In this document: piece after piece, positions 4,201 to 59,100 of the stretch
How the letters are laid out: each line of letters starts with the position of its first letter
Numbering within the stretch: position 1 is the stretch's first letter
Origin: Mimachlamys varia
Lineage: Eukaryota; Mollusca; Bivalvia; Pectinida; Pectinidae
Direction: 5' to 3'
Assembly: GCA_947623455.1 (NCBI GenBank)
Contig: OX392529.1
Coordinates: 4,030,001 to 4,094,000 of the forward strand
DNA length: 64,000 bases
Translations under genes and position numbers: made by a program
The notes under the pieces: generated by a model
Database searches by the model: none
What the model was told of the DNA's origin: nothing
The model's input: only the letters and a program-made list of their open reading frames with translations

Positions 4201-7200
4201 CCAATTTCACTGCGTGTGCGGTGAATCAGACGGCCATTAACATACAGCATGTTGGCGGCTCGGTCGTTGTCCAGCTTCAGGATCTTATAACTGTATTGGG
4301 CTGTACTGCGGATTTGCTGTAAACACAGTACATACATATAGCAGGGAATGTCATTCTATTCATGTAAATACCGGTACACAAAAAACTTTGATCAGGTAAA
4401 TATCACCACAAAATTAATAAGTGATAAATATGTGTTATATATCTGTATTGACATGCACAGCACTCTTGTCTAATAGGATTTCTTATATATACCTCTAAAC
4501 AAAGGACTTATGTTAGTATATTGTCTTTATACCTCTAAACGTAGGACTTATGTTAGTTTATTGTCTTTATACCTCTAATCATAGGACTTATGTTAGTATA
4601 TTGTCTTTATACCTCTAAACATAGGACTTATGTTAGTATATTGTCTTTATACCCCTACCCTGTAGGACTTATGTTAGTATATTGTCTTTATACCCCTACC
4701 CCGTAGGACTTATGTTAGTATATTGTCTTTATACCTCTAAACATAGGACTTATGTTAGTATATTATCTTTATACCCCTACCCTGTAGGACTTATGTTAGT
4801 ATATTGTCTTTATACCTCTAAACATAGGACTTATGTTAGTATATTGTCTTTATACCTCTACCCCGTAGGACTTATGTTAGTATATTGTCTTTATACCTCT
4901 AAACATAGGACTTATGTTAGTATATTGTCTTTATACCTCTAAACATAGGACTTATGTTAGTATATTGTCTTTATACCTCTAAACATAGGACTTATGTTAG
5001 TATATTGTCTTTATACCTCTAAACATAGGACTTATGTTAGTATATTGTCTTTATACCCCTACCCCGTAGGACTTATGTTAGTATATTGTCTTTATACCTC
5101 TACCCTGTAGGACTTATGTTAGTATATTGTCTTGATACCCCAACCCCGTAGGACTTATGTTAGTATATTGTCTTTATACCCCTACCCTGTAGGACTTATG
5201 TTAGTTTTTTGTCTTTATACCCCTACCCTGTAGGACTTATGTTAGTATATTGTCTTTATACCCCTACCCTGTAGGACTTATGTTAGTTTTTTGTCTTTAT
5301 ACCCCTACCCTGTAGGACTTATGTTAGTATATTGTCTTTATACCCCTACCCCGTAGGACTTATGTTAGTATATTGTCTTTATAACCCTACCCTGTAGGAC
5401 TTATGTTAGTATATTGTCTTTATACCCCTACCCTGTAGGACTTATGTTAGTATATTGTCTTTATACCTCTAAACATAGGACTTATGTTAGTATATTGTCT
5501 TTATACCCCTACCCCGTAGGACTTATGTTAGTATATTGTCTTTATACCCCTACCCTGTAGGACTTATGTTAGTATATTGTCTTTATACCTCTAACCATAG
5601 GACTTATGTTAGTATATTGTCTTTATACCCCTACCCCATAGGACTTATGTTAGTATATTGTCTTTATACCCCTACCCCGTAGGACTTATGTTAGTATATT
5701 GTCTTTATACCCCTACCCTGTAGGACTTATGTTAGTATATTGACTTTATACCCCTACCCTGTAGGACTTATGTTAGTTTTTTGTCTTTATACCCCTACCC
5801 TGTAGGACTTATGTTAGTATATTGACTTTATACCCCTATCCTGTAGGACTTATGTTAGTATGAGTACATAGTACATTGAGCCCATGGGACTGTGGCGGGA
5901 CTATGTTGAGTACATAGAGGCCAAGGGACTGGGGCTGGACTTCGTTGAGTACATTGAGGGCCATGGGACTGTGGCTGGACTATGTTGAGTACATTGAGGG
6001 CCATGGGACTGTGGCTGGACTATGTTGAGTACATAGAGGCCATGGGACTGTGGCTGGATTACGATGAGTACATAGAGGCCATGGGACTGTGGCTGGATTT
6101 ATGTTGAGTACATTGAGGCCATGGGACTGTGGCTGGATTTATGTTGAGTACATTGAGGCCATGGGACTGTAGCTAGACTACGTTGAGTACATTGAGCCCA
6201 TGGGACTGTGGCTGGACTACGTTGAGTACATTGAGGGCCATGGGACTGTGGCTAGACTACGTTGAGTACATTGAGCCCATGGGACTGTGGCTGGATTATG
6301 TTGAGTACATTGAGGGCCATGGGACTGTGGCTAGACTACGTTGAGTACATTGAGGCCAGGGGACTGTGGCTGGACTACGTTGAGTACATTGAGGCCAGGG
6401 GACTGTGGCTGGACTATGTTGAGTACATAGAGGCCAAGGGACTGTGGCTGGACTTCGTTGAGTACATTGAGGGCCATGGGACTGTGGCTGGACTATGTTG
6501 AGTACATTGAGGGCCATGGGACTGTGGCTGGATTTATGTTGAGTACATTGAGGCCATGGGACTGTGGCTAGACTACGTTGAGTACATTGAGCCCATGGGA
6601 CTGTGGCTGGACTTACGTTGAGTACATTGAGGCCAGGGGACTGTGGCTGGACTACGTTGAGTACATTGAGGCCATGGCACTGTGGCTGGATTATGTTGAG
6701 TACATTGAGGCCATGGGACTGTGGCTGGACTACGTTGAGTACATTGAGGGCCATGGGACTGTGGCTAGACTACGTTGAGTACATTGAGCCCATGGGACTG
6801 TGGCTGGATTATGTTGAGTACATTGAGGCCAGGGGACTGTGGCTGGACTACGTTGAGTACATTGAGGCCATGGCACTGTGGCTGGATAATGTTGAGTACA
6901 TTGAGGCCATGGGACTGTGGCTTGATTATGTTGAGTACATAGAGGCCATGGCACTGTGGCTGGACTACGTTGAGTACATAGAGGCCATGGGACTGTGGCT
7001 GGACTATGTTGAGTACATTGAGGGCAATGGGACTGTGGCTGGACTACGTTGAGTACATTGAGGCCATGGGACTGTGACTGGACTATGTTGAGTACATAGA
7101 GGCCATGGGACTGTGGCTGGACTATGTTGAGTACATTGAGGGCAATGGGACTGTGGCTGGACTACGTTGAGTACATTGAGGCCATGGGACTGTGACTGGA

Positions 7201-10200
7201 CTACGTTGAGTACATTGAGGCCATGGGACTGTGGCTGGACTATGTTGCATACATTGAGGCCATGGGACTGTGGCTGGACTATGTTGAGTACATTGAGGGC
7301 CATGGGACTGTGGTTGGACTATATTGAGAACATAGAGGCCATGGGACTGTGGCTTGATTATGTTGAGTACATAGAGGCCATGGGACTGTGGCTTGATTAT
7401 GTTGAGTACATTGAGGGCCATGGGACTGTGGCTGGACTATGTTGAGTACATAGAGGCCATGGGACTGTGGCTGGACTTACGTTGAGGGCCATGGGACTGT
7501 GGCTGGACTTACGTTGAGTACATAGAGGCCATGGGACTGTGGCTGGACTTACGTTGAGGGCCATGGGACTGTGGCTGGACTTACGTTGAGTACATTGAGG
7601 CCATGGGACTGTGGCTGGACTGTGTTGAGTACATTGAGGGCCATGGTACTGTGGCTGGACTACGATGAGTACATTGAGGCCATGGGACTGTGGCTGGACT
7701 ACGTTGAGTACATTAAGGGCCATGGTGACTGTGGCTAGACTATGTTGAGTACATTGAGGGCCATGGGACTGTGGCTGGACTATGTTGAGTACATTGAGGG
7801 CCATGGGACTGTAGCTAGACTACGTTGAGTACATTGAGGCCATGGGACTGTGGCTGGACTATGTTGAATACATTGAGGCCATGGGACTGTGGCTGGACTA
7901 TGTTGAGTACATTGAGGGCCATGGGACTGTGGCTAGACTACGTTGAGTACATTGAGGGCCATGGGACTGTGGCTAGACTACGTTGAGTACATTGAGGGCC
8001 ATGGGACTGTGGCTGGACTTACGTTGAGTACATTGAGGGCCATGGGACTGTGGCTGGACTTACGTTGAGTACATTGAGGGCCATGGGACTGTGGCTGGAC
8101 TTAGGTTGAGGGCCATGGGACTGTGGCTGGACTTACTTTGAGTACATTGAGGGCCATGGAACTGTGGTGGACTTAGGTTGAGTACATTGAGGGCCACGGG
8201 ACTGTGGCTGGACCTACGTTGAGTACATTGAGGGCCATGGGGAGTACATTGAGGGCCATGGGACTGTGGCTGGACTATGTTGAGTACATTGAGGGCCATG
8301 GGACTGTGGCTGGACTTACGTTGAGTACATTGAGGGCCATGGGACTGTGGCTGGACCAACATTGAGTACATTGAGGGCCATGGGACTGTGGCTGGACCTA
8401 CGTTGAGTACATAGAGGCCATGGGACTGTGGCTGGACCAACATTGAGTACATTAAGGGCCATAGGACTGTGACTGGACTTACGTTGAGTACATAGAGGCC
8501 ATGGGACTGTGGCTGGACCTACGTTGAGTACATTGAGGGCCATGGGACTGTGGCTGGACCTACGTTGAGTACATTGAGGGCCATGGGTAGTACATTGAGG
8601 GCCATGGGACTGTGGCTGGACTATGTTGAGTACATTGAGGGCCATGGAACAGTGGCTGGACTTACATTGAGTACATTAAGGCCATGGGACTGTGGCTGGA
8701 CTTACGTTGAGTACATTGATGGCCATGGGACTGTGGCTGGACTTACGTTGAGTACATTGAGGGCCATGGGACTGTGACTGGACCAACATTGAGGGCCATG
8801 GGACTGTGGCTGGACCAACATTGAGTACATTGAGGGCCATGGGACTGTGGCTGTACTATGTTGAGTACATTGAGGGCCATGGGACTGTGGCTGGACTTAG
8901 GTTGAGTACATTGAGGGCCATGGGACTGTGGCTGGACTTACGTTGAGTACATTGAGGGCCATGGGACTGTGGCTGGACTTACGTTGAGTACATTGAGGGC
9001 CATGGGACTGTGGCTGGACTTACGTTGAGTACATTGAGGACCATGGGACTGTGGCTGGACTTAGGTTGAGGGCCATGGGACTGTGGCTGGACTTACGTTG
9101 CGTACATTGAGGGCCATGGGACTGTGGCTGGACTTAGGTTGAGTACATTGAGGGCCATAGGACTTTGGCTGGACTTACGTTGAGTACATTGAGGGCCATG
9201 GGGAGTACATTGAGGGCCATGGGACTGTGGCTGGACTATGTTGAGTACATTGAGGGCCATGGGACTGTGGCTGGACTAACATTGAGTACACTAAGGCCAT
9301 GGGACTCTGACTGGACTTACGTTGAGTACATTGAGGCCATGGGACTGTGGCTGGACTTACGTTGAGTACATTGAGGGCGATGGGACTGTGGCTGGACTAT
9401 GTTGAGTACATTGAGGGCCATGGGACTGTGACTGGACTTACGTTGAGTACATTGAGGCCATGGGACTGTGGCTGGACTTACGTTGAGTACATTGAGGGCC
9501 ATGGGACTGTTGCCACATGCAATGATGTCCCTCCCTGCCATACACACTAGGGACTTGAGGCGAACATCGCCCCTCATCTTAATGGGTGTGACGTTGTACT
9601 CAGGGAACACCTTCACCACAGCATTAGCTCCTGCTTCATTACTCCTCTCGTCAGAGCCCACACCAACGAAGATCTCCTTACCTGTGGAAACAGCAAGGTT
9701 ATCTCCCTTTATTACACTAATACTCTTGTTCAATTCAATTATGCAATCATGATTGAGTCAAATAATGGCCAACACTTGAAATCTGTATCAAATAAGATAT
9801 AATCCGTGAATGACAACCTTAACTTGTTGTCTGTAGCAGTGATTTCATTCTGTAGAGTTAGCCCGAGGTATTCATTAGAAATAAAATCATGCAAACACCA
9901 TAACTATGCCAAAAACACAAATAATGCCCTTATATACACATCAAAAGGATCTGTTTGATATGAACAAGAAAACTACTTAAGCATTGAACTGCATTCAGTT
10001 GGCATTCATATAGCCTATGAATGCCAACTGAAAGCAGTTCAATACTTATATTTACCATTTTTAGAATCTGCTCATGTCATAAAACAATCAATAACACATT
10101 TTATTTCTCAGCATTTAGCTCAATAAATGTATTTGTCGCATACGCTTGTTCAATGAAAAGAACAGCCATCGCCCGGGGACGGTCAATGGTATCCAACATA

Positions 10201-19200: not shown

Positions 19201-22200
19201 TCATAAAACAACACACAATATTTTTAAGACACATATATACATGTAGTAATACAGTAACTGTGTATGTTCTGTACTGTGTATGTTCTATACTGTATATGTT
19301 CTATACTGTGTATGTTCTATACAGTGTATGTTCTATACTGTGTATGTTCTATACTGTGTATGTTCTATAGTGTGTATGTTCTATACAGTGTAAGTTATAT
19401 ACAGTGTAAGTTATATACAGTGTAAGTTATATACAGTGTAAGTTATATACTGTGTATGTTCTATACTGTATATGTTCTATACTGTATATGTTCTATACTG
19501 TGTATGTTCTATACTGTGTATGTTCTATACAGTGTAAGTTATATACAGTGTAAGTTATATACAGTGTAAGTTATATACAGTGTAAGTTATATACTGTGTA
19601 TGTTCTATACTGTATATGTTCTATACTGTGTATGTTCTATACAGTGTAAGTTATATACAGTGTAAGTTATATACAGTGTATGTTCTATACTGTATATGTT
19701 CTATACTGTATATGTTCTATACTGTATATGTTCTATACAGTATATGTTCTATACTGTGTATGTTCTATACTGTGTATGTTCTATACTGTGTATGTTCTAT
19801 ACTGTGTATGTTCTATACAGTGTATGTTCTATACTGTATATGTTCTACACTGTGTATGTTCTATACTGTATATGTTCTATACTGTGTATGTTCTATACTG
19901 TGTATGTTCTATACTGTGTATGTTCTATACAGTGTAAGTTCTATACTGTATATGTTCTACATTGTGTATTTTCTACACTGTGTATGTTCTATACTGTGTA
20001 TGTTCTACATTGTATATGTTCTACACTGTGTATGTTCTATACTGTGTATGTTCTATACTGTGTATGTTCTATACAGTGTATGTTCTATACTGTGTATGTT
20101 CTATACAGTGTATGTTCTATACTGTATATGTTCTATACTGTATATGTTCTACACTGTGTATGTTCTATACTGTGTATGTTCTATACTGTGTATGTTCTAT
20201 ACAGTGTATGTTCTATACTGTGTATGTTCTATACAGTGTATGTTCTATACTGTGTATGTTCTATACAGTGTATGTTCTATACTGTGTATGTTCTATACAG
20301 TGTATGTTCTATACTGTATATGTTCTATACTGTATATGTTCTACACTGTGTATGTTCTATACTGTGTATGTTCTATACTGTATATGTTCTATACTGTATA
20401 TGTTCTACACTGTGTATGTTCTATACAGTGTACATGTATGTTCTATACTGTGTATGTTCTACATTGTGTATGTTCTATACTGTATATGTTCTATACTGTG
20501 TATGTTCTATACTGTGTATGTTCTATACTGTGTATGTTCTATACTGTATATGTTCTATACTGTGTATGTTCTATACTGTGTATGTTCTATACTGTATATG
20601 TTCTATACTGTGTATGTTCTATACTGTGTATGTTCTATACTGTATATGTTCTATACTGTGTATGTTCTATACTGTATATGTTCTATACTGTGTATGTTCT
20701 ATACTGTGTATGTTCTATACTGTGTATGTTCTATACTGTGTATGTTCTATACTGTGTATGTTCTATACTGTATATGTTCTATACTGTATATGTTCTATAC
20801 TGTATATGTTCTATACTGTGTATGTTCTATACTGTATATGTTCTATACTGTATATGTTCTATACTGTGTATGTTCTATACTGTATATGTTCTATACTGTA
20901 TATGTTCTATACTGTGTATGTTCTATACTGTATATGTTCTATACTGTATATGTTCTATACTGTGTATGTTCTATACTGTATATGTTCTATACTGTATATG
21001 TTCTATACTGTATATGTTCTATACTGTGTATGTTCTATACTGTATATGTTCTATACTGTGTATGTTCTATACTGTGTATGTTCTATACTGTATATGTTCT
21101 ATACTGTATATGTTCTATACTGTATATGTTCTATACTGTATATGTTCTATACTGTGTATGTTCTATACTGTATATGTTCTATACTGTATATGTTCTATAC
21201 TGTATATGTTCTATACTGTATATGTTCTATACTGTATATGTTCTACACTGTGTATGTTCTATACTGTATATGTTCTATACTGTGTATGTTCTATACTGTG
21301 TATGTTCTATACTGTATATGTTCTATACTGTATATGTTCTATACTGTGTATGTTCTATACTGTGTATGTTCTATACTGTATATGTTCTATACTGTATATG
21401 TTCTTTACTGTGTATGTTCTATACAGTGTACATGTATGTTCTATACTGTGTATGTTCTACATTGTGTATGTTCTATACTGTATATGTTCTATACTGTGTA
21501 TGTTCTATACAGTGTATGTTCTATACTGTATATGTTCTACACTGTGTATGTTCTATACTGTATATGTTCTATACTGTGTATGTTCTATACTGTGTATGTT
21601 CTATACTGTATATGTTCTATACTGTATATGTTCTTTACTGTGTATGTTCTATACAGTGTACGTTACGTCTCCATACCTATAAGTACTCACCGGTGAAGAG
21701 GATGTCTCCTCCATTAACATATGCTTCAGGATCTTTAATCTCAAACACATGAAGATTCAGGTCCTGTAACAGCTTCCGAACTCCAGCAACCTGTGAGGTC
21801 AAACAAAATGGAGGTCATTAAGCCTCTGACAGCAACCTATGATTAATCAAATATAATGTACAAATTATGCCCCCAAAACCTTATTTATTTTGTCATTTTA
21901 CAATGTGCTCAAACACCATAAGTATCTCTGTATACATGAAGTACATTTAAGCATTAAACTGCATTCTGTTTGGGGTTATAGATAATATGAAGGCCCACTG
22001 CATTACAGGAAAAGAGCATTAACCTCGCAAGAGGTTCATGTTTGATTTCCTGTAATTCTGTGGGTGTTTGTGATCATATCACCAGAATGCAGTTTAATGC
22101 TTATATTTACATTCCCACTCTGGAATGTTGAATTGGCAGAACTGCCCATAGCCTGTGCATAGGGCAAAGACAGTCATAACCAGATCATGGGGCTGAAAAA

Positions 22201-22961: not shown

Positions 22962-22992
22962 CTTGAACAGGAAATGCTTCCGTGAGTGGTTG

Positions 22993-23000
22993 TGACGTCA
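22993..23000. promoter_or_regulatory. CRE/ATF-type site in the DDAH promoter
   Basis: The palindrome TGACGTCA lies 32 bp upstream of the DDAH start codon, in a short GC-richer stretch. The consensus is exact. Its function here is inferred from position only. Confidence 0.45.
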
Positions 23001-23165
23001 CATACTATTGACAAGAGCGACACCTTTGATGTCTGCCGCCAGGTGCGATGGTTTAGATTGGGGCGGACATTCCTAGGGAATGATTCATAAATTATTCAAC
23101 ACACGTTGTTTTATCCAGTAATTGTTATATGCGGCAATGTCATTAATTTTATGGCACGTTTGTAC

Positions 23166-23690
23166 GGGGCGCCGTTTTACTATTTATGAACAACTGGATA
23201 TCTAAAATTCGAGTTATGGATATGGTATCATTAAATAATTTTGGATATCCAAAATGTCCATGAATATGGGGCGCCGTTTAACTATTTATTAACAAAAGTG
23301 GATATCCAAAATTCGATTATGGATATCCATTATTCATTTTTCGATCCATTATTCCAATTTATGATATCACAAAAATTTGGATATCCTAAATTATTTTTGG
23401 ATATCCAAAATTCGAATGATGAATATCCATAAATGATTTTTGGATATCCAAAAAATCGAATAAAGGATATCCTTAATTCAAAGCATTTAACGATATCCAA
23501 AATTCGAATTATGGATATCCAAAAATGATTTATGGATATCCACAATTGGAATTTTGGATATCCAGTTTTGTTAATAAATAATAAAACGGCGCCCCATCCA
23601 TGAATGATAGTTGGATATCCAAAAATCGAATTATGGATATAAGCGGGTTTGGCGGTATAACGGGTGGCGATATAACGGGGTTTTACTGTA
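23166..23690. mobile_element. Foldback element made of GGATATCC palindromes
   Basis: The core element 23268-23595 (328 bp) has inverted ends GGGGCGCCGTTT and AAACGGCGCCCC. Its interior is a chain of imperfect TTTGGATATCCAAAATTCG palindromes. An extra left-end copy starts at 23166, and GGATATCC units continue to about 23640. Nearly every part can fold on another part. Confidence 0.7.
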
Positions 23691-23898
23691 TTGGAAATAC
23701 ATTGTCCGCGGCCCACCATGGGACATGCGCATAATAAAATTGAAGAAAACGCAAAAGAAATAGGCCATTCTGACAAAGGATTACTTTCTCGGTTTAGCAT
23801 TCTCTTTACTAATGCAGATACCTTAACGAAATTTAAGTTACAAGAACAAAAAAACAGTAGCAAAGCGGGATACCCCAGATGTAATAGCTATTTCCGAA

Positions 23899-24384
23899 GT
23901 GAAACCAAAGAATTTAAAAAGACAAATTGATCTGTCCGAATATAGCATAGAGGGATATGTCATAATATCTCTAAATATGTCCAAGGATCTGCCAGGGAGA
24001 GGCATGATCATGTACCTAAGAGAACGTCTTAAGTATTCCCAAATTACATTCAGCAACATAGAATTTGATGAGCTTATCTTATGTGAAGTAAAACTTAACT
24101 CTAATGAAAACGTACTTGTTGGCTCTCTATACAGAAGCCCAAATTTTAACTCATCAGAAGAAAATTTTAAGAATTTGTGCAAATTGCTACTAGAAACGGC
24201 TAAAAGGAAATACAACTATAAGATATTATTTGGGGATTTAAACTTACCGGAGATCGACTGGTCAAATTATAACACAAAAAACAACGAAACATCAACCGAG
24301 TTCAAGTTTATAGAATGTCAGGCAACCGACACGCGGAAGGGGTACGGACAATCCAAGCGTTATAGATTTAGTTCTAACAGATAA
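23899..24384 (+). pseudogene. LINE endonuclease fragment
   Basis: An open stretch with YSIEGYVI, LVGSLYRSPN and GDLNLPEIDW, the block that holds catalytic Asp/Asn of the apurinic endonuclease. The preceding part of the domain lies in another frame upstream (FTNADTL near 23805), so the ORF is broken. Confidence 0.75.
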
Positions 24385-29097: not shown

Positions 29098-29102
29098 GTA
29101 GT

Positions 29103-32017: not shown

Positions 32018-32164
32018 CTAAAAAGTTGGTTTGTACTTCTTCACTTCAACCATGACATGATGGATATTGATGAGTTCATTTCGAATTGCCATATTACGGA
32101 ACGGTCCTTGTGATAATACTTTCTGAAAGCGATGATAGTACTGGATCAGCTGAGTAAGGGCCCC
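32018..32164 (-). CDS. VPS52: VPS52 exon 19 (terminal)
   Basis: 147 nt, 48 residues plus TAG, starting GALTQLIQYYHRF and ending VEVKKYKPTF. The acceptor TTGTAG is followed by GGGG. The acceptor region is the seed of the 42-bp repeat just upstream. Confidence 0.93.
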   Translation of the reverse strand, partial: GALTQLIQYYHRFQKVLSQGPFRNMAIRNELINIHHVMVEVKKYKPTF

Positions 32165-44100: not shown

Positions 44101-47100
44101 ACCTTCAATTACTGGCTTGTATCACTGAACACCTGTATCTCTACAGAAACTTAATTTTCTTACCTTAATACTTATATACCTATATCTTTCTATATTTGTA
44201 CGACCCTACACCTATGTATGTACACATCATCAATTCCTTACTTTACCTGCCTTATCTCTCTACACCAACTATCCATTCCTTACTTTACCTGCCTTATCTC
44301 TCTACACCCACTATCCATTCCTTACTTTACCTGCCTTATCTCTCTACACCCACTATCCATCCCTTACTTTACCTGCCTTATCTCTCTACACTCACTATCC
44401 ATTCCTTACTTTACCTGCTTTATCTCTCTACACCCACTATCCATCCCTTACTTTACCTGCCTTATCTCTCTACACCAACTATCCATTCCTTACTTTACCT
44501 GCCTTATCTCTCTACACCCACTATCCATTCCTTACTTTACCTGCCTTATCTCTCTACACCCACTATCCATTCCTTACTTTACCTGCCTTATCTCTCTACA
44601 CCCACAATCCATTACTTACTTTACCTGCCTTATCTCTCTACACCCACTATCCATTCCTTACTGTACCTGCCTTATCTCTCTACACCCATTATCCATCCCT
44701 TACTTTACCTGCCTTATCTCTCTACACCCACTATCCATTCCTTACATTACCTGCCTTATCTCTCTACACTCACTATCCATTCCTTACTTTACCTGCCTTA
44801 TCTCTCTACACCCACTATCCATTCCTTACTGTACCTGCTTTATCTCTCTACACCCACTATCCATTCCTTACTTTACCTGCTTTATCTCTCTACACCCACT
44901 ATCCACTCCTTACTTTACCTGCCTTATCTCTCTACACCCACTATCCATTCCTTACTTTACCTGCCTTATCTCTCTACACCAACTATCCATTCCTTACATT
45001 ACCTGCCTTAAATCTCTACACCCACTATCCATCCCTTACTTTACCTGCCTTATCTCTCTACACCCACTATCCATCCCTTACTTTACCTGCCAATCCCTTC
45101 CCCTCGACGTACCTGTAGCTTCATCAGTCTGCTCAGGTAACCCTTGAAATAGGAGTAGTACATCTTACTCATGGTATCTATGTACTCATCTCTCACTTCC
45201 TTAGCAACGTGTCTCTCATTGGCCATCAGAAATTCATTAAAGAACCTGTAACACAAGCATAGAAAGTAGTAGAGCTAATATCTGAGAGCTCCAACAAAAT
45301 CTCAGTGTTTTATCAACTTTATAAACTCCACACTTCAGAAACTTCATGCTAAATTACCCAATGCAAATGTTGACATTAGATCATATGATGCTCACAAGAT
45401 TTTCATGAAAAAAGAAGACACAATGTATGAAACGCTTTCACATGATAGACAACACATGAGGACAGTCTGTAAAAGCTCACTAGATCCTACAGGCTAAACA
45501 ACGTTACCAAGCTCATCGGAACGTACAGAGTAGGCTAAATGCCATTGCCAAGTTCATTAAAACATATAGCCGGTGTAGTCTAATGTCATCAACAAGTTTA
45601 CCAGAACCAATAGATCGGGTAGGCCATTTGCCCTTACCTAGCTCACCAGAACATATGAATTGTTTGCAGTGTGGACATTTTCGCTTGTTTCGCTGGCATT
45701 AAATCTCTGAGAATAAAATATCTGAATACCACCTAAACTCTACAGTGTATACTATTATGATAGGTACACACCACGGCTGACAGTGTGAACGTTTCCACAC
45801 CGCAAACAGTTTCGAGCCTGACTAAGCGAAAAATTCCATCAGCAAAAATATTGGCTTTTACAGTACTTCATTGCTAGATGTCATTACCAAGCTCACTAGA
45901 ACCTATAACTGGACTTGCTAGATACCATAACCAAGTTCACTAGAACCTATAGCTGGACTGGCTAGGTGTCATTTCCAAGTTCACTAGAACCTATAGCTGG
46001 ACTGGCTAGATAACATTACCAAGTTCACTAGAACCTATAGCTGGACTGGCTAGGTGTCATTTCCAAGTTCACTAGAACCTATAGCTGGACTGGCTAGGTG
46101 CCATTACCAAGCTCACTAGAACCTATAGCTGGACTGGCTAGATACCATTACCAAGCTCACTAGAACCTATAGCTGGACTGGCTAGATGTCATTACCAAGT
46201 TCACTAGAACCTATAGCTGGACTGGCTAGATGCCATTTCCAAGCTCACTAGAACCTATAGCTGGACTGGCTAGATGTCATTTCCAAGTTCACTAGATCCT
46301 ATAGCTGGACTGGCTAGATGTCATTACCAAGCTCACTAGAACCTATAGCTGGACTGGCTAGATGCCATTTCCAAGCTCACTAGAACCTATAGCTGGACTG
46401 GCTAGATGTCATTTCCAAGTTCACTAGATCCTATAGCTGGACTGGCTAGATGTCATTACCAAGCTCACTAGAACCTATAGCTGGACTGGCTAGATGCCAT
46501 TTCCAAGCTCACTAGAACCTATAGCTGGACTGGCTAGATGCCATTTCCAAGTTCACTAGATCCTATAGCTGGACTGCCTAGATGCCATTTCCAAGCTCAC
46601 TAGAACCTATAGCTGGACTGGCTAGATGTCATTTCCAAGTTCACTAGATCCTATAGCTGGACTGGCTAGATGTCATTACCAAGCTCACTAGAACCTATAG
46701 CTGGACTGGCTAGATGTCATTACCAAGCTCACTAGAACCTATAGCTGGACTGGCTAGATGCCATTTCCGAGCTCACTAGAACCTATAGCTGGACTGGCTA
46801 GATGCCATTTCCAAGCTCACTAGAACCTATAGCTGGACTGGCTAGATGGCATTTCCAAGCTCACTAGAACCTATAGCTGGACTGGCTAGATACCATTACC
46901 AAGCTCACTAGAACCTATAGCTGGACTGGCTAGGTGTCATTTCCAAGTTCACTAGATCCTATAGCTGGACTGGCTAGATGTCATTACCAAGCTCACTAGA
47001 ACCTATAGCTGGACTGGCTAGATGTCATTTCCAAGCTCACTAGAACCTATAGCTGGACTGGCTAGATGCCATTTCCAAGTTCACTAGAACCTATAGCTGG

Positions 47101-50100
47101 ACTGGCTAGGTGTCATTTCCAAGTTCACTAGAACCTATAGCTGGACTGGCTAGATACCATTACCAAGCTCACTAGAACCTATAGCTTGACTGGCTAGATG
47201 TCATTTCCAAGTTCACTAGAACCTATAGCTTGACTTGCTAGATACCATTACCAAGCTCACTAGAACCTATAGCTGGACTGGCTAGATACCATTACCAAGC
47301 TCACTAGAACCTATAGCTGGACTGGCTAGGTGTCATTTCCAAGTTCACTAGAACCTATAGCTGGACTGGCTAGATACCATTACCAAGCTCACTAGAACCT
47401 ATAGCTTGACTGGCTAGATGTCATTTCCAAGCTCACTAGAACCTATAGCTTGACTGGCTAGGTGTCATTTCCAAGTTCACTAGAACCTTTAGCTGGACTG
47501 GCTAGATACCATTACCAAGTTCACTAGAACCTATAGCTGGACTGGCTAGATGTCATTTCCAAGCTCACTAGAACCTATAGCTGGACTGGCTAGATGTCAT
47601 TTCCAAGCTCACTAGAACCTATAGCTGGACTGGCTAGATGCCATTTCCAAGCTCACTAGAACCTATAGCTTGACTTGCTAGATACCATTACCAAGCTCAA
47701 TAGAACCTATAGCTGGACTGGCTAGATACCATTACCAAGTTCACTAGAACCTATAGCTGGACTGGCTAGATATCATTACCAAGCTCACTAGAACCTATAG
47801 CTGGACTGGCTAGATGCCATTTCCAAGCTCACTAGAACCTATAGCTGGACTGGCTACATTCCATTACCAAGCTCACTAGAACCTATAGCTGGACTGGCTA
47901 GGTGTCATTTCCAAGTTAACTAAAACCTATAGCTGGACTGACTAGATGTCATTACCAAGCTCACTAGAACCTATAGCTGGACTGACTAGATGCCATTTCC
48001 AAGCTCACTAGAACCTATAGCTTGACTGGCTAGATACCATTACCAAGCTCACTAGAACCTATAGCTGGACTGGCTAGATACCATTACCAAGCTCACTAGA
48101 ACCTATAGCTGGACTGACTAGATGCCATTTCCAAGTTCACTAGAACCTATAGCTGGACTGGCTAGATGTCATTACCAAGCTCACTAGAACCTATAGCTGG
48201 ACTGGTTAGATGCCATTTCCAAGTTCACTAGAACCTATAGCTGGACTGGCTAGATGCCATTTCCAAGTTCACTAGAACCTATAGCTGGACTGGCTAGATA
48301 CCATTACCAAGCTCACTAGAACCTATAGCTGGACTGGTTAGATAACATTACCAAGCTCACTAGAACCTATAGCTGGACTGACTAGATGCCATTTCCAAGC
48401 TCACTAGAACCTATAAATTAAGTCTAGGCTGAACACCAATACTAGGTGAATACATTGTGTCACAGATTCTTAACAATAAATCGTACCTAAACTTCAGCAT
48501 TGCATTTTGTGGAATGGTGTAGTTGCTCATGGGCTTGCGGAAGGAGTATATCTTCTGCATCAGGAACTCTCGGATTTTGGCAATTGCCTGTAAACATTGT
48601 CATTAGAGTTACATCTCTGATAAGGTAGGGGCTAACAGCTACACTTTACACTGTACATCATTATCTATATTCAAGTTTACAAGATTCTTGATTCATAGCA
48701 CTTTCTTTATTTAGAAGGATGTTACAACAAATACAAAGTGAAATAAATTAATATGAATAAAAGTGTTAAAAGACATGCTGCGATCACTGAACAGATTCAG
48801 TTTCAGCTTGCCCACATAGATATGTTTATACCACACTTAACTTCAAATGTCATAGTACCTCACCTTTATTTTCAACTTTTCCAGAATATCACGAACATCA
48901 AAACATGATTTGGCATCTCGGAAGGACTGTTCCTTAACAAAGTTTATTTTGTGGTTTAACTCATGGAGGTGTTCCAGGAACTCCCTTTCTGTGACTGGTG
49001 TATCCAAGATGTGGCTGGAATCATCAAACAGGAGGTTATCTCTAACATATTATTACACCCAGTTAGTCAGTACATTTTGTTACATTTTAGCTTTAAAATC
49101 AATGATCTACCACCTGTTCAGACTTAAACATTTATACTAACACCTGTATACATCCAAAGAGGAGGATAAAATAGGCATTTGTAATACATTTTCTTAAGAT
49201 TATGATTCATTCAAAGCTTTTGAACAAATGAAGACTTTAAGTACAGCTCCCCCCCCCCCCCCCCCCTGGTGTGTGACTCACTTGATCATTGTCTCTGGTA
49301 TAACCATCTCGTCCACAAACTGACTCAGCTCACCTCGCACAGCCTGCAACACAATATCATACTCTAAGCAGGCATATTCTTGTGTTTTCTTTGTGTATTT
49401 ATTGCTCAACATTTAGGTACCTGTATCTTGTGTGACATTTTTCTCAACTGTATGTATGTGTGACATCTACTTGTACTGTGTGTGACATCTACCTGTACTG
49501 TGTGTGACATCTACCTGTACTGTGTGTGACATCTACCTGTACTGTGTGTGACATCTACATGTACTGTGTGTGACATCTACCTGTACTGTGTGTGACATCT
49601 ACCTGTACTGTGTGTGACATCTACCTGTACTGTGTGTGACATCTACCTGTACTGTGTGTGACATCTACCTGTACTGTGTATGACGTCTACCAGTATTGTG
49701 TGTGATGTTTACCTGTATTGTGTTATGTTTACCTGTACTGTGTGTGATGTTTACCTGTACTGGGTGATGTTTACCTGTACTGTGTGTGACGTTTACCTGT
49801 ACTGTGTGTGACATTTACCTGTACTGTGTGTGACGTTTACCTGTACTGAGTGATGTTTACCTGTACTGTGTGTGATGTTTACCTGTATTGTGTGTGACAT
49901 TTACCCGTACTATGTGTGATGTTTACCTGTACTGTGTGTGACGTTTACCTGTACTGTGTGTGATGTTTATCTGTTCTGTGTGTGATGTTTACCAGTATTG
50001 TGTGTGACATTTACCTGTACTGTGTGTGGCGTTTACCTGTACTGTGTGTGGCGTTTCCCTGTACTGTGTGTGTGATGTTTACCTGTACTATGTGTGATGT

Positions 50101-53100
50101 TTACCTGTACTGTGTGTGACATTTACCTGTCCTATGTGTGATGTTTACCTGTTCTATGTGTGATGTTTACCTGTACGGTGTGTGATGTTTACCTGTACTG
50201 TGTGTGACATTTACCTGTACTGTGTGACATTTACCTGTACTGGGTGATGTTTACCTGTACTGGGTGATGTTTACCTGTACTGTGTGTGATGTTTACCTGT
50301 ACTGGGTGATGTTTACCTGTACTGTGTGTGATGTTTACCTGTACTGTGTGGGATGTTTACCTGTACTATGTGTGACGTCTACCTGTACTATGTGTGACGT
50401 CTACCTGTACTGTGTGTGATGTTTACCAGTTCTGTTTGTGATGTTTACCTGTACTGTGTGTGACGTTTATTTGTACTAAAAGTGAGGTTTACCTGTCGGT
50501 TTTTTAACTTGACGTTCATGGTAACAGACTGTTCCTGTAGAGTCTGGATCTCACTACTGATGCTGCTGAGGTCACCCTGGAAACCATTCAGCATCTGCTC
50601 CATTCTCTGTCATCAGAACAAAATATGCTCAAATTGTACTGTTTAAACTCTGATCTCGGCCATTTCTCATAGTTGAAATTTGATCTGAACAAAATGTATT
50701 TGAGATTCACAGTGCTGGTCCACAGAAATGTATAAGTATCCTGGCTTCAGATCTTTAAATTCTCAGAGATTTTAACAGTGACTCCTGTAACTTTAAAAGT
50801 AGTCCTATGTCATTTAAATGAGGAATTACGTGCCAAATATCAGGGCTTTGACAGCTTCAGAGAAAAACACTGATGGACAGAAGCTGGATGGACATAAGCT
50901 CAAAAGCATATAATGACATGCAAGTTTATAAAAGCCATTGTATAAAGTCAATTGAAAGTATACAGCAATCTAAGTTATGATTGTATACAATGTAAGTATT
51001 TGTGACACTTGTCAGCTACACTCACCTCCAGAATGGTGTCACAAGCCGCGATCTGTTTGTGCAGACTGGCGATGTTCTGACTCTCCTTAATGTCTGTATC
51101 ACATAAGGAATCCCATTTATCTAACACACAGCTCAAACAGCTTAAACAAAACACCTAAACAATAAACCTTGTAATGGGACCAAGTCAATCTAACTATAAC
51201 CAAGTTAACCCTACCAGAACAAAGTCAATTGTGTAAATTATATGTGAACCAAGCCAATCTGACAGAAGTTAAGTACATTCTATGGGAATAAGGTCAGTCT
51301 AATAGCTATAGGCACAGAGTAAACTTGGTAACTACATCGGTCTGTTAGGAACCAAGCTAATTGAATGGTAACAAGGTCAGTCTGTTAGGAACCAAGCTAA
51401 TTGAATGGTAACAAGGTCAGTCTGTTAGGAACCAAGCTAATTGAATGGTAACAAGGTCAGTCTGTTAGGAACCAAGCTAATTGAATGGTGACAAGGTCAG
51501 TCTGTTAGGAACCAAGCTAATTGAATGGTAACAAGGTCAGTCTGTTAGGAACCAAGCTAATTGAATGGTAACAAGGTCAGTCTGTTAGGAACCAAGTTAA
51601 TTGTTAATAGCAAAGTCAATTTGATAAAAAACCAAGCTAATTGTATGAGAACCAAGCTAATTGTAAAATAACAAAAGTCAATACTTTGAGAACTTAGTTA
51701 GTGACAGTCAGTCTGACAGAAACCACATGAATTCTAAGAGACCAAAGTCAAATCTGATAAGAACCAGGTAAACACAAAAAGGAACCATATAACTTTTATA
51801 AATCTCATCGTCTGATTGGAATGAAATACAGAATAATGGTAATTTGGTAAAACAACCTTGGGTAATGTAATTCAGTTTGTAATAAAGTTATCTGACCGGA
51901 ACCAAGTAAGTGTAATATGAACCAAGTAAAAAAACACTGGGTAAAAACCAAGTCTGTCTGATGGACAATCTGGGTAAAAACCAAGTCTGTCTGATGGACA
52001 ATCTGGGTAAAAACCAAGTCTGTCTGATATACAATCTGGGTAAAAACCAAGTCTGTCTGATATACAATCTGGGTAAACACCAAGTCTGTCTGATATACAA
52101 TCTGGGTAAAAACCAAATCTGTCTGATGGACAATCTGGGTAAAAACCAAGTCTGTCTGATGGACAATCTGGGTAAAAACCAAGTCTGTCTGATATACAAT
52201 CTGGGTAAAAACCAAGTCTGTCTGATATACAATCTGGGTAAAAACCAAGTCTGTCTGATATACAATCTGGGTAAAAACCAAGTCTGTCTGATGGACAATC
52301 TGGGTAAAAACCAAGTCTGTCTGATAAACAATCTGGGTAAAAACCAAGTCTGTCTGAAATACAATCTGGGTAAAAACCAAGTCTGTCTGATATACAAGCT
52401 GGTTAAACACCAAGTCTGTCTGATATACAATCTGGTTAAACACCAAGTCTGTCTGATGGACAATCTGGGTAAAAACCAAGTCTGTCTAATATACAATCTG
52501 GGTAAAAACAAAGTCTGTCTGACGGATAATCTGGGTAAAAACCAAGTCTGTCTGATGAACAATCTGGGTAAAAACCAAGTCTGTCTGATATACAATCTGG
52601 GTAAAAACCAAGTCTGTCTGATGGACAATCTGGGTAAAAACCAAGTCTGTCTGATATACAATCTGGCTAAAAACCAAGTCTGTCTGATGGACAATCTGGG
52701 TAAAAACCAAGTCTGTCTAATATACAATCTGGGTAAAAACAAAGTCTGTCTGATGGACAATCTGGGTAAAAATCAAGTCTGTCTAATGAACAATCTGAAA
52801 AAATCTGTGGAAACTAAGTGAGAAAAGTGTTATTGATATGATGTCAAGGATACAGTCCTGTATAGAGGCATTCTCTACATCTAGTAGCTCCCTCTCCACC
52901 TGTTTGGAATACTGCCTCAAATCAACTCCCTACAACATATCAGTCTATAACATTGTATACAAACATTCATATCAGCATATAACATCGTATAAAAACATTC
53001 ATATCAGCATATAACATCGTATAAAAACATTCATGTATGATGGTGTACACTTGTACCATAAAAGTCAACTTACAGTTACACAGGAACTTTACCCGAGGTG

Positions 53101-56100
53101 ACTAGTGGTGTACTCCTGGTACTATAGCAGCTATATATACAAAGTTACACAGGAACTTTACCCAAGGTGACTAGTGGTGTACCCCCAGTACTATAGCAGC
53201 TATACAAAGTTACACAGGAACTTTACCCTAGATGACTGGTGGTGTACACTTGTACCCCCGGTACTATAGCAGCTATACAAAGTTACACAGGAACTTTACC
53301 CGAGGTGACTGGTAGTGTACACTTGTACCCCCGGTACTATAACAGCTATACAAAGTTACACAGGAACTTTACCTGAGATGACTGGTGGTGTACATTTGTA
53401 CCCCCGGTACTATAACAGCTATACAAAGTTACACAGGAACTTTACCTGAGATGACTGGTGGTGTACACTTGTACCCCCGGTACTATAACAGCTATACAAA
53501 GTTACACAGGAACTTTACCCAAGGTGACTGGTGGTGTACACTTGTACCCCCAGTACTATAACAGCTATACAAAGTTACACAGGAACTTTACCTGAGATGA
53601 CTGGTGGTGTACATTTGTACCCCCGGTACTATAACAGCTATACAAAGTTACACAGGAACTTTACCTGAGATGACTGGTGGTGTACACCTGTACCCCCGGT
53701 ACTATAACAGCTATACAAAGTTACACAGTAACTTAACCTGAGGTGACTGGTGGTGTACACTTGTACACCCGGTACTATAACAGCTATACAAAGTTACACA
53801 GGAACTTTACCTGAGGTGACTGGTGGTGTACCCCCGGTTCTATAACAGCTATACAAAGTTACACAGTAACTTTACCCTAGGTGACTGGTGGTGTACACTT
53901 GTACCCCCAGTACTATAACAGCTATACAAAGTTACACAGGAACTTTACCCGAGGTGACTGGTGGTGTACACTTGTACCCCCGGTACTATAACAACTATAC
54001 AAAGTTACACAGGAACTTTACCCGAGGTGATTGGTGGTGTACACTTGTACCCCGGGTACTATAACAACTATACAAAGTTACACAGGAACTTTACCTGAGG
54101 TGACTGGTGGTGTACCCCCGGTACTATAACAGCTATACAAAGTTACACAGGAACTTTACCCGAGGTGATTGGTGGTGTACACTTGTACCCCCGGTACTAT
54201 AACAACTATACAAAGTTACACAGTAACTTTACCTGAGGTGACTGGTGGTGTACCCCCGGTACTATAACAACTATAGAAAGATACACAGTAACTTTACCCT
54301 AGGTGACTGGTGGTGTACCCCCGGTACTATAACAGCTATACAAAGTTACACAGGAACTTTACCTGAGGTGACTGGTGGTGTACCCCCGGTACTATAACAG
54401 CTATACAAAGTTACACAGTAACTTTACCTGAGGTGACTGGTGGTGTACCCCCGGTACTATAACAACTATAGAAAGATACACAGTAACTTTACCCTAGGTG
54501 ACTGGTGGTGTACCCCCGGTACTATAACAGCTATACAAAGTTACACAGGAACTTTACCTGAGGTGACTGGTGGTGTACCCCCGGTACTATAACAGCTATA
54601 CAAAGTTACACAGGAACTTTACCTGAGGTGACTGGTGGTGTACACTTGTACCCCTGGTACTATAACAGCTATACAAAGATACACAGGAACTTTACCTGAG
54701 GTGACTGGTGGTGTACCCCCGGTACTATAACAACTATACAAAGATACACAGGAACTTTACCCGAGGTGACTGGTGGTGTTCACTTGTACCCCCGGTACTA
54801 TAACAACTATACAAAGTTACACAGGAACTTTACCTGAGGTGACTGGTGGTGTACACATGTACCCCCGGTACTATAACAGCTATACAAAGTTACACAGTAA
54901 CTTTACCCGAGGTGACTGGTGGTGTACACTTGTACCCCCGGTACCGTACTATAACAACTATAGAAAGATACACAGGAACTTTACCCGAGGTGACTGGTGG
55001 TGTACACTTGTACCCCCGGTACCGTACTATAACAACTATAGAAAGATACACAGGAACTTTACCCGAGGTGACTGGTGGTGTACACTTGTACCCCCGGTAC
55101 TATAACAACTATACAAAGATACACAGGAACTTTACCCGAGGTGACTGGTGGTGTACTTACTGTATTCAGGGCTTCTTTAACAATGTCATCTTCCAAATTT
55201 TGTTGAATATGTACTGAAAATAGGATTTATAATAAATTAATAATTATTTAAATGAGACTTAAACGAAACCCCTCACATCAACACATTGACTGACATCTGT
55301 ATGACAAAATAAACAGAATCAGTATCTACACTAGTGACTGTGATGGATAGTAGATTTTAATCTGTTGAGTAATGAGCTGACAAAGTAACGAAATGTTTTT
55401 TTTTTTAAATAGTAAAAGTGACCTTGCCCTTTAGAACAATGAGATTTTTTCTTTCCAAACAAGTCAGTAATCTTGACCTCCGACAAAAAAAACAAAATGT
55501 AAACTTATTCAAGCTATTGTCATACTTCAACACTTTAATTAAGCTTTCTTTAGAGACAGGACACTCACCACTAGATTCCTTTAGAGACAAGACACTCACC
55601 ACCAGCTTTCTTTAGAGACAGGACATTCACCACCAGCTTCCTTTAGAGACAAGACGCTCACCACCAGCTTTCTTTAGAGACAAGACACTCACCACCAGCT
55701 TTCTTTAGAGACAAGACACTCACCACTAGATTCCTTTAGAGACAAGACACTCACCACCAGCTTCCTTTAGAGACAGGACACTCACCACCAGCTTCCTTTA
55801 GAGACAAGACACTCACCACCAGCTTCCTTTAGAGACAAGACACTCACCACCAGCTTCCTTTAGAGACAGGACACTCACCACCAGCTTCCTTTAGAGACAT
55901 GACACTCACCACCAGCTTCCTTTAGAGACAAGACACTCACCACTAGCTTTCTTTAGAGACAAGACACTCACCACCAGCTTCCTTTAGAGACAAGACACTC
56001 ACCACCAGCTTCCTTTAGAGACATGACACTCACCACAAGCTTCCTTTAGAGACAAGACACTCACCACCAGCTTCCTTTAGAGACAAGACACTCACCACCA

Positions 56101-59100
56101 GCTTCCTTTAGAGACAAGACACTCACCACCAGCTTCCTTTAGAGACAGGACACTCACCACCAGCTTCCTTTAGAGATAAAACACTCACCACCAGCTTCCT
56201 TTAGAGACAGGACACTCACCACCAGCTTCCTTTAGAGACAAGACACTCACCACCAGCTTCCTTTAGAGACAAGACACTCACCACCAGCTTCCTTTAGAGA
56301 CAGGACACTCACCACCAGCTTCCTTTAGAGATAAAACACTCACCACCAGCTTCCTTTAGAGACAGGACACTCACCACCAGCTTTCTTTAGAGACAAGACA
56401 CTCACCACCAGCTTCCTTTAGAGATAAAACACTCACCACCAGCTTCCTTTAGAGACAGGACACTCACCACCAGCTTCCTTTAGAGACAAGACACTCACCA
56501 CCAGCTTCCTTTAAAGACAGGACACTCACCACCAGCTTCCTTTAGAGACCGGACACTCACCAACAGCTTTCTTTAGAGACAAGACACTCACCACTAGATT
56601 CCTTTAAGGACAAGACACTCACCACCAGCTTCCTTTAGAGACAGGACATTCACCATCAGCTTCCTTTAGAGACAGGACACTCACCACCAGCTTTCTTTAG
56701 AGATAAGACACTCACCACCAGCTTCCTTTAGAGACAGGACACTCACCACCAGCTTCCTTTAGAGACAAGACACTCACCACCAGCTTCCTTTAGAGACATG
56801 ACTCTCACCACCAACTTCCTTTAGAGACAAGACACTCACCACCAGCTTCCTTTAGAGACAAGACACTCACCACCAGCTTCCTTTAGAGACAGGACACTCA
56901 CCACCAGCTTCCTTTAGAGACATGACACTCACCACCAGCTTTCTTTAGAGACAAGACACTCACCACCAGCTTCCTTTAGAGACAGGACACTCACCACCAG
57001 CTTCCTTTAGAGACAGGACACTCACCAACAGCTTTCTTTAGAGACAAGACACTCACCACTAGATTCCTTTAAGGACAAGACACTCACCACCAGCTTCCTT
57101 TAGAGACAGGACACTCACCATCAGCTTCCTTTAGAGACAAGACACTCACCACCAGCTTCCTTTAGAGACAAGACACTCACCACCAGCTTTCTTTAGAGAC
57201 AGGACACTCACCATCAGCTTCCTTTAGAGACAGGACATTCACCACTAGCTTCCTTTAGAGACAAGACACTCACCACCAGCTTCCTTTAAAGACAGGACAC
57301 TCACCACCAGCTTCCTTTAGAGACAGGACACTCACCACCAGCTTCCTTTAGAGACAAGACACTCACCACCAGCTTCCTTTGGAGACAAGACACTCACCAC
57401 CAGCTTCCTTTAGAGACAAGACACTCACCATCAGCTTCCTTTAGAGACAGGACACTCACCACCAGCTTCCTTTAGAGACAAGACACTCACCACCAGCTTC
57501 CTTTAGAGACAAGACACTCACCATCAGCTTCCTTTAGAGACAAGACACTCACCACCAGCTTCCTTTAGAGACAGGACACTCACCATCAGCTTCCTTTAGA
57601 GACAAGACACTCACCACCAGCTTCCTTTAGAGACAAGACACTCACCACCAGCTTCCTTTAGAGACAGGACACTCACCACTAGCTTTCTTTAGAGACAAGA
57701 CACTCACCACTAGCTTTCTTTAGAGATAAGACACTCACCACCGGCTTCCTTTAGAGACAAGACACTCACCACCAGCTTCCTTTAGAGACAAGACACTCAC
57801 CACCAGATTCCTTTAGAGACAAGACACTCACCACCAGCTTCCTTTAGAGACAAGACACTCACCACCAGCTTCCTTTAGAGACAAGACACTCACCACCAGC
57901 TTCCTTTAGAGACAAGACACTCACCACCAGCTTCCTTTAGAGACAAGACACTCACCACCAGCTTCCTTTAGAGACAAGACACTCACCACCAGCTTCCTTT
58001 AGAGACAAGACACTCACCACTAGATTCCTTTAGAGACAAGACACTCACCACCAGCTTTCTTTAGAGATAAAACACTCACCACCAGCTTCCTTTAGAGACA
58101 AGACACTCACCACCAGCTTCCTTTAGAGACAAGACACTCACCACCAGCTTCCTTTAGAGACATGACACTCACCACCAGCTTCCTTTAGAGATAAGACACT
58201 CACCACCAACTTTCTTTAGAGACAAGAAACTCACCACCAGCTTCCTTATAGCCAGATTATTTATACTTGTCATTAGCAATGAATTTCTATCAGCTAGCTG
58301 ATTATATATACTTACCATCAGCTTCTTCCAGCCAGAAATCTTCTGAAGTTAAGTCCAGCTCACCAAGGTTCAACTTTAGACTGTCAGTGACCTCCTGTAT
58401 GAATCCAGATCAAATTTAAATACACTGTATATACATGATATAGAGTGGTCTCTGAAAACCAGTTACTTTATAATATTGAGTAAAGCCGGGAAAGAGTAGA
58501 GACAGTACGTACTCTAAGGAAAGGTACTAGATCACCAACCTACAAACTTGTTATCCTATGAACTTTTATAAGCAATTGTTCTCTATTTATTCCCTTCCTG
58601 GTAGGTATTGGACAAGCTCGTTAATTGGTGTTAATCTACTGGCTTACACTTTAGCTACTACTGGCAATAAACTGAACTAAAGGCAGATTTGTAAGATGAA
58701 AAAGTCTTCAACTTGGTGTGTGATTTTGTCACTAACTTGCAATACTTATTTTTAACAGTCCTCCTTTTTTCTCAGAAAATGTGTTTTGCACAAACATATA
58801 CAATGTATGTTTCCTACATACCAGTATTTACTTTTCAGAAAATATTTCGAAACTTTTCATGATCTTCTCCTCCATTTCCTAATTATAATCTCCAGATGAA
58901 GCATTGTGTCATTTTTCCAGCATCAGCATCTTTACACTTCAGTTTCTCTGCTGGTATATTTAATATCTTTGTTGTTGTTTGAACACACACAGTATCACTG
59001 GTCAACAACGTGATTAACACAAGATCTGATTTCAGCTTAATGCTAGCTAAGGGGCTTTTTGGTGTGATTATGCTAATTAGTTACATGCTTTTCCTATCAT

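Follow-up and report, generated by a model that had tools for sequence, protein, structure and literature searches.

Introns may be gained, according to the Rogers model, through tandem duplication of AGGT-bearing sequence, and introner elements belong to one family whose copies are dispersed. Duplicated human genes have been described with internal tandem repeats at their exon-intron boundaries (De Grassi and Ciccarelli 2009, PMC2812944), where the passages on the subject report 27 intron modifications, with about four copies in paralogues from segmental duplications and novel introns arising via cryptic sites. For the potato RdRp gene, the relevant passages of PMC4974935 describe an acceptor-crossing tandem duplication that changed the exon-intron structure.

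The window analysed here, 64,000 nucleotides on chromosome 3 of Mimachlamys varia, a scallop (GCA_947623455.1, OX392529.1, 4,030,001-4,094,000), carries minisatellites in the introns of VPS52 and DDAH, some of which span the authentic exon-intron junction. Like the human repeats, as those passages present them, they are minisatellites of about 30 bp over exon-intron boundaries that alter intron structure; unlike them, they display a donor-versus-acceptor asymmetry and multiplied authentic donors, neither of which figures in the passages of PMC2812944. With the Rogers model and the potato case, as far as the passages on the latter go, they share a tandem duplication carrying splice signals at the boundary, but here the copies, usually many, lengthen an intron that was already there, and no new intron was seen. 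Similar events in many introns recall introner elements, whereas the scallop units are local and differ from one another. In contrast to ordinary minisatellites and VNTRs, the founder segment can be identified, namely the authentic exon end with its donor. Topic searches of a literature that included few subscription journals showed no such donor-founded class among the matches listed. We favour, at a probability of about 0.55, the view that these minisatellites were founded by tandem duplications across the 3' end of an exon and its splice donor, which left the messenger RNA unaltered.

Arrays at the donors of VPS52 and DDAH

Both genes lie on the minus strand and were modelled as VPS52 exons 2-19 and DDAH exons 1-3, with VPS52 exon 1 placed at 62284-62313. 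The models match the Pfam families Vps52_C (1.9e-124) and DDAH_eukar (6.2e-8), and the spliced VPS52 model, free of repeats, shares 96% identity with VPS52 of Pecten maximus. They give 21 donors in the window, where the first-pass annotation had counted 22 introns. With the arrays left out, the flanking exons are joined in frame and agree with the protein of Pecten maximus; a Rogers-type gain of a new intron is thus rejected for the window, as the arrays sit inside introns.

With a threshold of score 150 and 2.4 copies (TRF), the intron arrays have units of 16-112 bp and up to 150 copies, including variant ones (Table 1); head-to-tail units of 10-100 bp in many copies with variant repeats identify them as minisatellites. 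At this threshold no array was found in VPS52 introns 5, 7 and 8 and DDAH intron 1, nor in VPS52 intron 1 (3.9 kb). Each unit was aligned to its own donor region and to the other 19 donors. Clear crossing of the junction, with 15-57 exonic nt and an unambiguous preference for the own donor, was observed at 5 of the 21 donors, those of DDAH intron 3 and VPS52 introns 13, 15, 16 and 18. Donor-crossing arrays are therefore real but fewer than the eight introns claimed at first: beyond these five firm cases, VPS52 introns 6 and 12 are plausible on weak alignments, and for VPS52 intron 2 crossing is indistinguishable from chance, which leaves that claim unsupported. The four further arrays said to begin within about 30 nt of a donor (DDAH intron 2; VPS52 introns 3, 10 and 17) do so. 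Overlooked at first were a second array in DDAH intron 3 and one that extends across the acceptor of VPS52 exon 19.

Table 1. Arrays of the window by intron. Starts are relative to the donor, negative values lying inside the exon; the last column gives the alignment of the unit to its own donor versus other donors.
Feature	Position	Strand	Unit and copies	Remarks	Start	Own vs other
VPS52 intron 13	38083..40082	-	63 bp x 31.7	57 nt from the end of exon 13, and GTAAGT	-57	133 vs 16
VPS52 exon 13	40026..40181	-		founder of intron 13 array (gene model)		
VPS52 intron 15	35460..35735	-	34 bp x 8.1	29-32 exonic nt	-29	83 vs 18
VPS52 intron 16	33875..34187	-	33 bp x 9.4	18 exonic nt	-18	53 vs 18
VPS52 intron 18	32343..32602	-	34 bp (TRF also 103)	15 exonic nt	-15	44 vs 18
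DDAH intron 3	5870..9510	-	39-41 bp x ~93	29-32 exonic nt	-29	69 vs <=17
DDAH intron 3, second array	4503..5861	-	41 bp x 33	diverged copy of DDAH intron 3 junction		25 vs <=14
VPS52 intron 6	49457..50496	-	22 bp x 47.8	4 exonic nt; plausible crossing	-4	25 vs 22
VPS52 intron 12	41105..41414	-	87 bp x 3.5	donor crossed with indels; plausible	+7	19 vs 16
VPS52 intron 2	55542..58247	-	31 bp x 87	GTGAGT-like copies	+68	22 vs 23
VPS52 exon 19 acceptor	32157..32270	-	42 bp x 2.7	acceptor crossed; 8 exonic nt		
VPS52 intron 3	53074..55156	-	73 bp		+4	
VPS52 intron 10	44229..45091	-	42 bp		+21	
VPS52 intron 17	32866..33474	-	31 bp		+6	
DDAH intron 2	19257..21664	-	16 bp x 150		+26	
VPS52 intron 4					+56	
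VPS52 intron 9					+71	
VPS52 intron 11					+110	
VPS52 intron 14					+48	

Donors, acceptors and the GTAAGT hexamer

Arrays of the window lie close to donors, within 71 nt in 14 of 15 introns (p 5e-5 to 5e-4), and the sum of log distances gives p 0.0008-0.005, while its acceptors show no excess of arrays apart from a borderline p of 0.054 in one of three settings. A point-insertion null gave p 5e-5, but once seeds were allowed across the edges the donor-crossing count became weak: among the 15 introns with both ends known, the loose count is 6 against 2.8-3.6 expected (p 0.05-0.14) and the strict count 4 (p 0.29-0.51 under uniform seeding). We therefore examined 63 introns of myosin genes elsewhere in the genome, chosen by family and not by repeats. 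These introns were inferred from exon pairs, because HMM matches on their own give noisy exon edges (arrays within 30 nt at 4/57 three-prime and 2/57 five-prime edges). Five of the 63 carry donor-crossing arrays with 19-73 exonic nt, and the phenomenon thus recurs beyond VPS52 and DDAH, on several chromosomes. No arrays were present in three compact chaperonin genes (23.7 kb, with 11 called introns).

In the pooled sets, 10 of 55 arrays extend 15 nt or more into the exon across their own donor (15-73 exonic nt), whereas the three that overlap an acceptor include only 6-8 exonic nt. Deep crossings accordingly number 10 at donors and 0 at acceptors (p 0.002), and for the myosins by themselves 5 and 0 (0.06 by a two-sided binomial test); at any depth the comparison is 10 to 3 (p 0.09). 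Under uniform seeding 2.48 deep donor crossings would be expected in the pooled sets (P 1.1e-4) and 0.71 in the myosins (P 2.6e-4). Only 2 of 1870 mismatched array-donor pairs passed the same test, which rules out one dispersed, introner-like family within the sequences compared; units differ between introns, and the initial claim of a process acting recurrently, as opposed to one repeat family, holds.

Among five motif features tried, plus a score for U1 complementarity, the hexamer GTAAGT was found in 8/10 crossed and 13/72 other donors (p 1.8e-4). The association is present in the window (4/5 versus 3/14, p 0.038) and in the myosins (4/5 versus 10/58, p 0.007), where it is stable with better-supported introns only (p 0.007-0.034). 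U1 complementarity differs less between crossed and other donors (7.30 versus 6.61 matches of 9, p 0.022) and an exonic AG is rarer at crossed donors (3/10 versus 48/72, p 0.037), so that the intronic hexamer stands out.

Within the arrays, the GT of the decoy donors is kept in 31/31 copies in VPS52 intron 13, in 9/9 in intron 16 and, by eye, in all five near-identical 75-bp copies of array L012. DDAH intron 3 retains it in 50 of 93 copies, and in array C9_3842500 the decoys are mostly altered, with one GTAAGT in 34 copies. No uniform pressure on the decoy donors is thus apparent across arrays.

A proposed silent origin and its alternatives

A duplication comprising exon tail, GT and intron head would keep the exon-proximal first donor in its native position. 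If the spliceosome commits to that donor as soon as it emerges, the mRNA would remain unchanged and later copies would be plain intron, free to expand by unequal exchange or slippage while the exon end is preserved as copy 1. Duplication across an acceptor, by contrast, would put a spare AG and exon sequence upstream of the real acceptor and alter the mRNA, and deep acceptor-crossing arrays would be removed by selection; the 10:0 asymmetry is also the expected outcome of selection on mRNA. GTAAGT may be over-represented since quick commitment to a strong first donor would render decoys harmless. Such a filter alone cannot make crossings denser than arrays in the intron interior, where they are tolerated, but ten deep crossings were observed against 2.48 expected; an extra bias of duplication toward exon edges seems required, although lengthening of introns after seeding would narrow the gap. 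The silent-duplication model is weakened by this excess over uniform seeding, by the mixed retention of decoy donors and by the arrayless chaperonin genes, and likewise by the p of 0.09 at any depth and the mere 5 versus 0 in the myosins.

Alternatively, a process at the 5' splice site itself (U1/U6 pairing, an R-loop, polymerase pausing or a breakpoint at GTAAGT) might start the duplications and make the donor a mutational hot spot, a possibility to which we give distinctly less credence. It would account for crossings at about fourfold the level of uniform seeding, mostly at GTAAGT donors, and for array starts near the donors in 14 of 15 window introns; the AAGT that in L012 is common to exon and donor and is found at both ends of the duplication (seen by eye) offers a microhomology, and neither of the U12-type donors in VPS52 is crossed (n=2). 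However, a donor matrix applied to the units of non-crossing arrays scored better in sense in just 12/23, and thus no sense-strand excess of donor motifs is seen; the GC skew of donor-proximal arrays is unbiased (n=15, p 0.6), myosin arrays adjoin acceptors as often as donors (6/18 within 30 nt on each side), and VPS52 intron 1 contains no array at the above threshold. These findings speak against the U1, R-loop or pausing cause put forward in the first-pass annotation. Moreover, donors near non-crossing arrays are not significantly enriched in GTAAGT (4/12 versus 9/60, p 0.21), a result easier to reconcile with a filter acting on the copies of donors than with an origin driven by the donor. 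That no special process operates, and that dense random minisatellites in short introns simply include some that cross donors, is unlikely. The ordinary strict count in the window agrees with it, as does the richness of scallops in tandem repeats noted in passages of PMC10225492, but the pooled and myosin excesses of deep crossings, the lack of deep acceptor crossings and the GTAAGT association do not.

Coding or isoform-generating repeats maintained for protein variation are a very improbable explanation. Although the frame of VPS52 intron 13 stays open for 677 codons beyond the donor and the L012 unit keeps the frame, 5/19 variants among the intron 13 copies are synonymous against 5.4 expected; as these variants are random for coding effect, a coding tandem repeat there was rejected. 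In the other crossed window introns a stop is reached within 5-54 codons, and most window units are not multiples of three. Least probable of all is an assembly artefact: assemblies of long tandem arrays are generally prone to error, but the passages of PMC11252643 on this genome report a HiFi assembly with 44-fold coverage and QV 64.4, the copies carry many distinct variants, and the pattern recurs on several chromosomes.

Consequences for intron growth

Judging from genomic sequence, silent duplication probably lengthens introns recurrently and unseen in messenger RNA, and would provide a direct, datable route of intron lengthening. The arrays place near-identical 5' splice sites, up to dozens in number, next to the real donor as its competitors, and these natural series offer a ready test of the first-donor-wins rule. 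More speculatively, and with considerable doubt, recognition of GTAAGT might itself provoke duplication, scallop introns might grow outward from their donors, the exon end could act as a master copy that re-founds the array, and donor-founded arrays could form a genome-wide class. If the link to GTAAGT is mutational, splice-site recognition would be tied to DNA instability. Thirteen donor-proximal arrays gave no sign of growth polarity, in the sense of fresher copies near the donor than at the distal end (p 0.89).

An alternate haplotype assembly of M. varia exists (GCA_947622925.1), and PMC11252643 names a muscle RNA-seq data set from the sequenced specimen (ERR10908612). The three deepest crossings have units of 63, 75 and 81 bp, all multiples of three, in numbers too small to indicate an excess. 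Several arrays are followed by decayed copies past their 3' end.

Arrays at the donors of VPS52 and DDAH

Both VPS52 and DDAH lie on the minus strand of the window. The modelled VPS52 exons 2-19 form a single open reading frame with Pfam support, whose product is 96% identical to that of Pecten maximus, and DDAH contributes exons 1-3, its intron 3 extending past the low end of the window. Minisatellite arrays account for 80% of VPS52 introns 2-18, for 67% of what is visible of DDAH intron 3 and for 50% of the window overall. In the 15 array-bearing introns with both ends visible, the median distance is 7 nt from the 5′ splice site (donor) to the first array and 113 nt from the last array to the 3′ splice site (acceptor).

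Junction crossing, in which the array unit reaches into the exon, was judged in the window by aligning each unit with the exon end of its own intron; the remaining donors all served as controls. The first-pass annotation had reported donor-spanning units in eight introns; the alignment upholds five unambiguously (DDAH intron 3 and VPS52 introns 13, 15, 16 and 18), is weak for VPS52 introns 6 and 12, and fails to separate the own-donor match of the intron 2 unit from matches to other donors. The clearest case is VPS52 intron 13, where the unit joins the 57 terminal exonic nt to GTAAGT and is repeated about 31 times. Despite an exon frame open across 677 codons, variants within this array are random for coding effect, and we therefore reject its retention as protein. 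The acceptor of VPS52 exon 19 is crossed by one array, 8 nt deep. Arrays cross neither of the VPS52 donors after exons 4 and 11, which belong to two U12-like introns. In DDAH intron 3, the second array derives, with divergence, from the exon 3 junction array next to it: an existing array has founded a further one whose unit is new.

As a null model for the window, one-unit seeds were placed uniformly in array-collapsed introns, with edge crossing permitted. The number of crossed donors is weak evidence against chance (6/15 introns by the loose count, against an expected 2.8-3.6, p = 0.05-0.14; 4/15 by the strict count, p = 0.29-0.51). Array proximity to donors is significant: the summed log distance gives p = 0.0008-0.005, and 14 of the 15 introns carry an array within 71 nt of the donor (p = 5e-5 to 5e-4). 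Closeness to acceptors shows no excess under this null when 0 or 30 nt of intron end are excluded (p = 0.89 and 0.5, respectively); excluding 60 nt gives p = 0.054.

Features of the window and of the myosin stretches
Feature	Location	Strand	Description
VPS52 exon 1	window 62284-62313	-	
U12-like intron after VPS52 exon 4	window 51094-52853	-	donor GTATCCTT
AT-AC U12-like intron after VPS52 exon 11	window 41556-41959	-	ATATCCTT ... TTCTGAC
Cys-loop ligand-gated channel	window 11647-13080	+	uninterrupted frame, 478 aa; Neur_chan_LBD 3.1e-46; nested within DDAH intron 2, opposite in strand to DDAH
Uninterrupted frame in DDAH intron 2	window 15336-17615	+	760 aa; LINE-type reverse transcriptase-like by eye
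Second DDAH intron 3 array	window 4503-5861		
Donor-crossing array	C15_17926500		37 bp x 64.6
Donor-crossing arrays	C9_30973000		33 bp x 57.3 and 81 bp x 20.8
Donor-crossing array	C9_3842500		35 bp x 34
Donor-crossing array	L012 (contig C5), ~1440-1825		75 bp x 5.1
Acceptor-crossing array	L020 2588-2679		6 exonic nt only
Acceptor-crossing array	L017, intron at 4160		6 exonic nt only
Array ending 1-3 nt short of acceptor	L013 3583-3935		
Array ending 1-3 nt short of acceptor	L015 9043-9370 (sense orientation)		

Myosin and chaperonin genes

Since most window introns belong to one gene and had been picked by the first-pass annotation, other genes were examined. Myosin motor-domain genes, a many-exon family whose repeats were not known at the time of choice, served as the independent sample, with at least 74 exon matches on the genome among the matches listed, only the best candidates being scored. 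Thirty-eight stretches were fetched and merged to 28 (264,228 bp), in which 68 arrays occupy 19% of bases. Searching with exon translations (tblastn) gave 141 exon clusters, and 62 introns were obtained from neighbouring exons whose frames and splice signals fitted together, a count that leaves out pairs without a confident intron. Arrays are present in 18 of the 62. Closeness to intron ends in the myosins is two-sided: six of these 18 have an array no more than 30 nt from the donor (expected 1.95; p = 0.007), and six have one that close to the acceptor (expected 1.97; p = 0.009). When every distance is taken into account, the p value for closeness is 0.003 at donors and 0.064 at acceptors.

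At C9_3842500 the TRF array start lies 56 nt inside, and 44-bp copies make the array contiguous with the exon. The L012 intron is an extra one, read by eye and kept out of the null for end distances; its five near-identical, in-frame 75-bp copies comprise the last 73 exonic nt plus the donor, and the array looks recent. Some myosin exons of the assembly sit within open frames of 744-1573 codons, too long for an exon alone and possibly reflecting in-frame arrays or stop-poor introns. Three chaperonin genes, picked for compactness, are free of arrays across 23.7 kb; here 11 exon pairs gave a called intron, three yielded none and four were skipped.

Deep crossing and the GTAAGT hexamer

Pooling 30 window and 25 myosin arrays under one rule for both sides, we find that 10/55 cross their own donor, each 15-73 exonic nt deep, and three cross an acceptor by 6-8 nt; among mismatched array-donor pairs, 2/1870 pass the same rule. 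At a depth of at least 15 nt the donor-to-acceptor ratio is 10 to 0 (p = 0.002; myosins alone 5 to 0, two-sided 0.06), and at any depth 10 to 3 (p = 0.09). Uniform seeding expects 2.48 deep donor crossings against the 10 seen (P of at least 10 = 1.1e-4), and 0.71 against 5 in the myosins alone (P = 2.6e-4), with the length of the L012 intron set by the analyst at 265 nt in the sum.

Five motif features were tried, GTAAGT among them, together with a complementarity score; this hexamer occurs at 8/10 crossed donors versus 13/72 other U2-type donors (p = 1.8e-4). The link is present in each set separately (window, p = 0.038; myosins, p = 0.007), and restricting the myosins to better-supported introns gives p = 0.007-0.034. 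Crossed donors less often have exonic AG at -2,-1 (3/10 versus 48/72, p = 0.037).

Origin of the donor-crossing arrays

A duplication across the donor would keep the native junction ahead of all copies and add only intron length, whereas one across the acceptor would alter the mRNA, and this difference would account for the asymmetry in depth. Strong donors would commit splicing fast, which, combined with silent duplication, would explain the link to GTAAGT. In the potato case of PMC4974935, the duplication crosses an acceptor and changes the mRNA. Silent duplication alone does not account for the fourfold excess of deep donor crossings over the uniform expectation; exon edges might be hot for duplication, arrays might be re-founded from the exon end as a preserved template, or the founding of the arrays might date from a time when introns were shorter.

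The first-pass annotation had proposed that some process linked to the 5′ splice site (U1 binding, R-loops, pausing at the exon end or a repair bias were its examples) starts the duplication. Such a donor-driven (U1-type) origin is possible: the richness of crossed donors in GTAAGT agrees with it and is its sole positive mechanistic support here, but donor-like motifs in non-crossing arrays show no sense-strand excess (12/23) and donor-proximal arrays no GC-skew bias (p = 0.6). The donor end of arrays is not fresher than the rest.

Minisatellites at exon-intron boundaries and intron gain through tandem duplication are already known (PMC2812944; PMC4974935); a recurrent class of arrays founded by authentic donors was not found in the open-licence papers searched. 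In L012, AAGT is common to exon and donor and, by eye, stands at both ends of the duplicated segment, as would be expected of microhomology-mediated duplication. Certain arrays keep their decoy donors intact, whereas in other arrays most of the decoys are altered.
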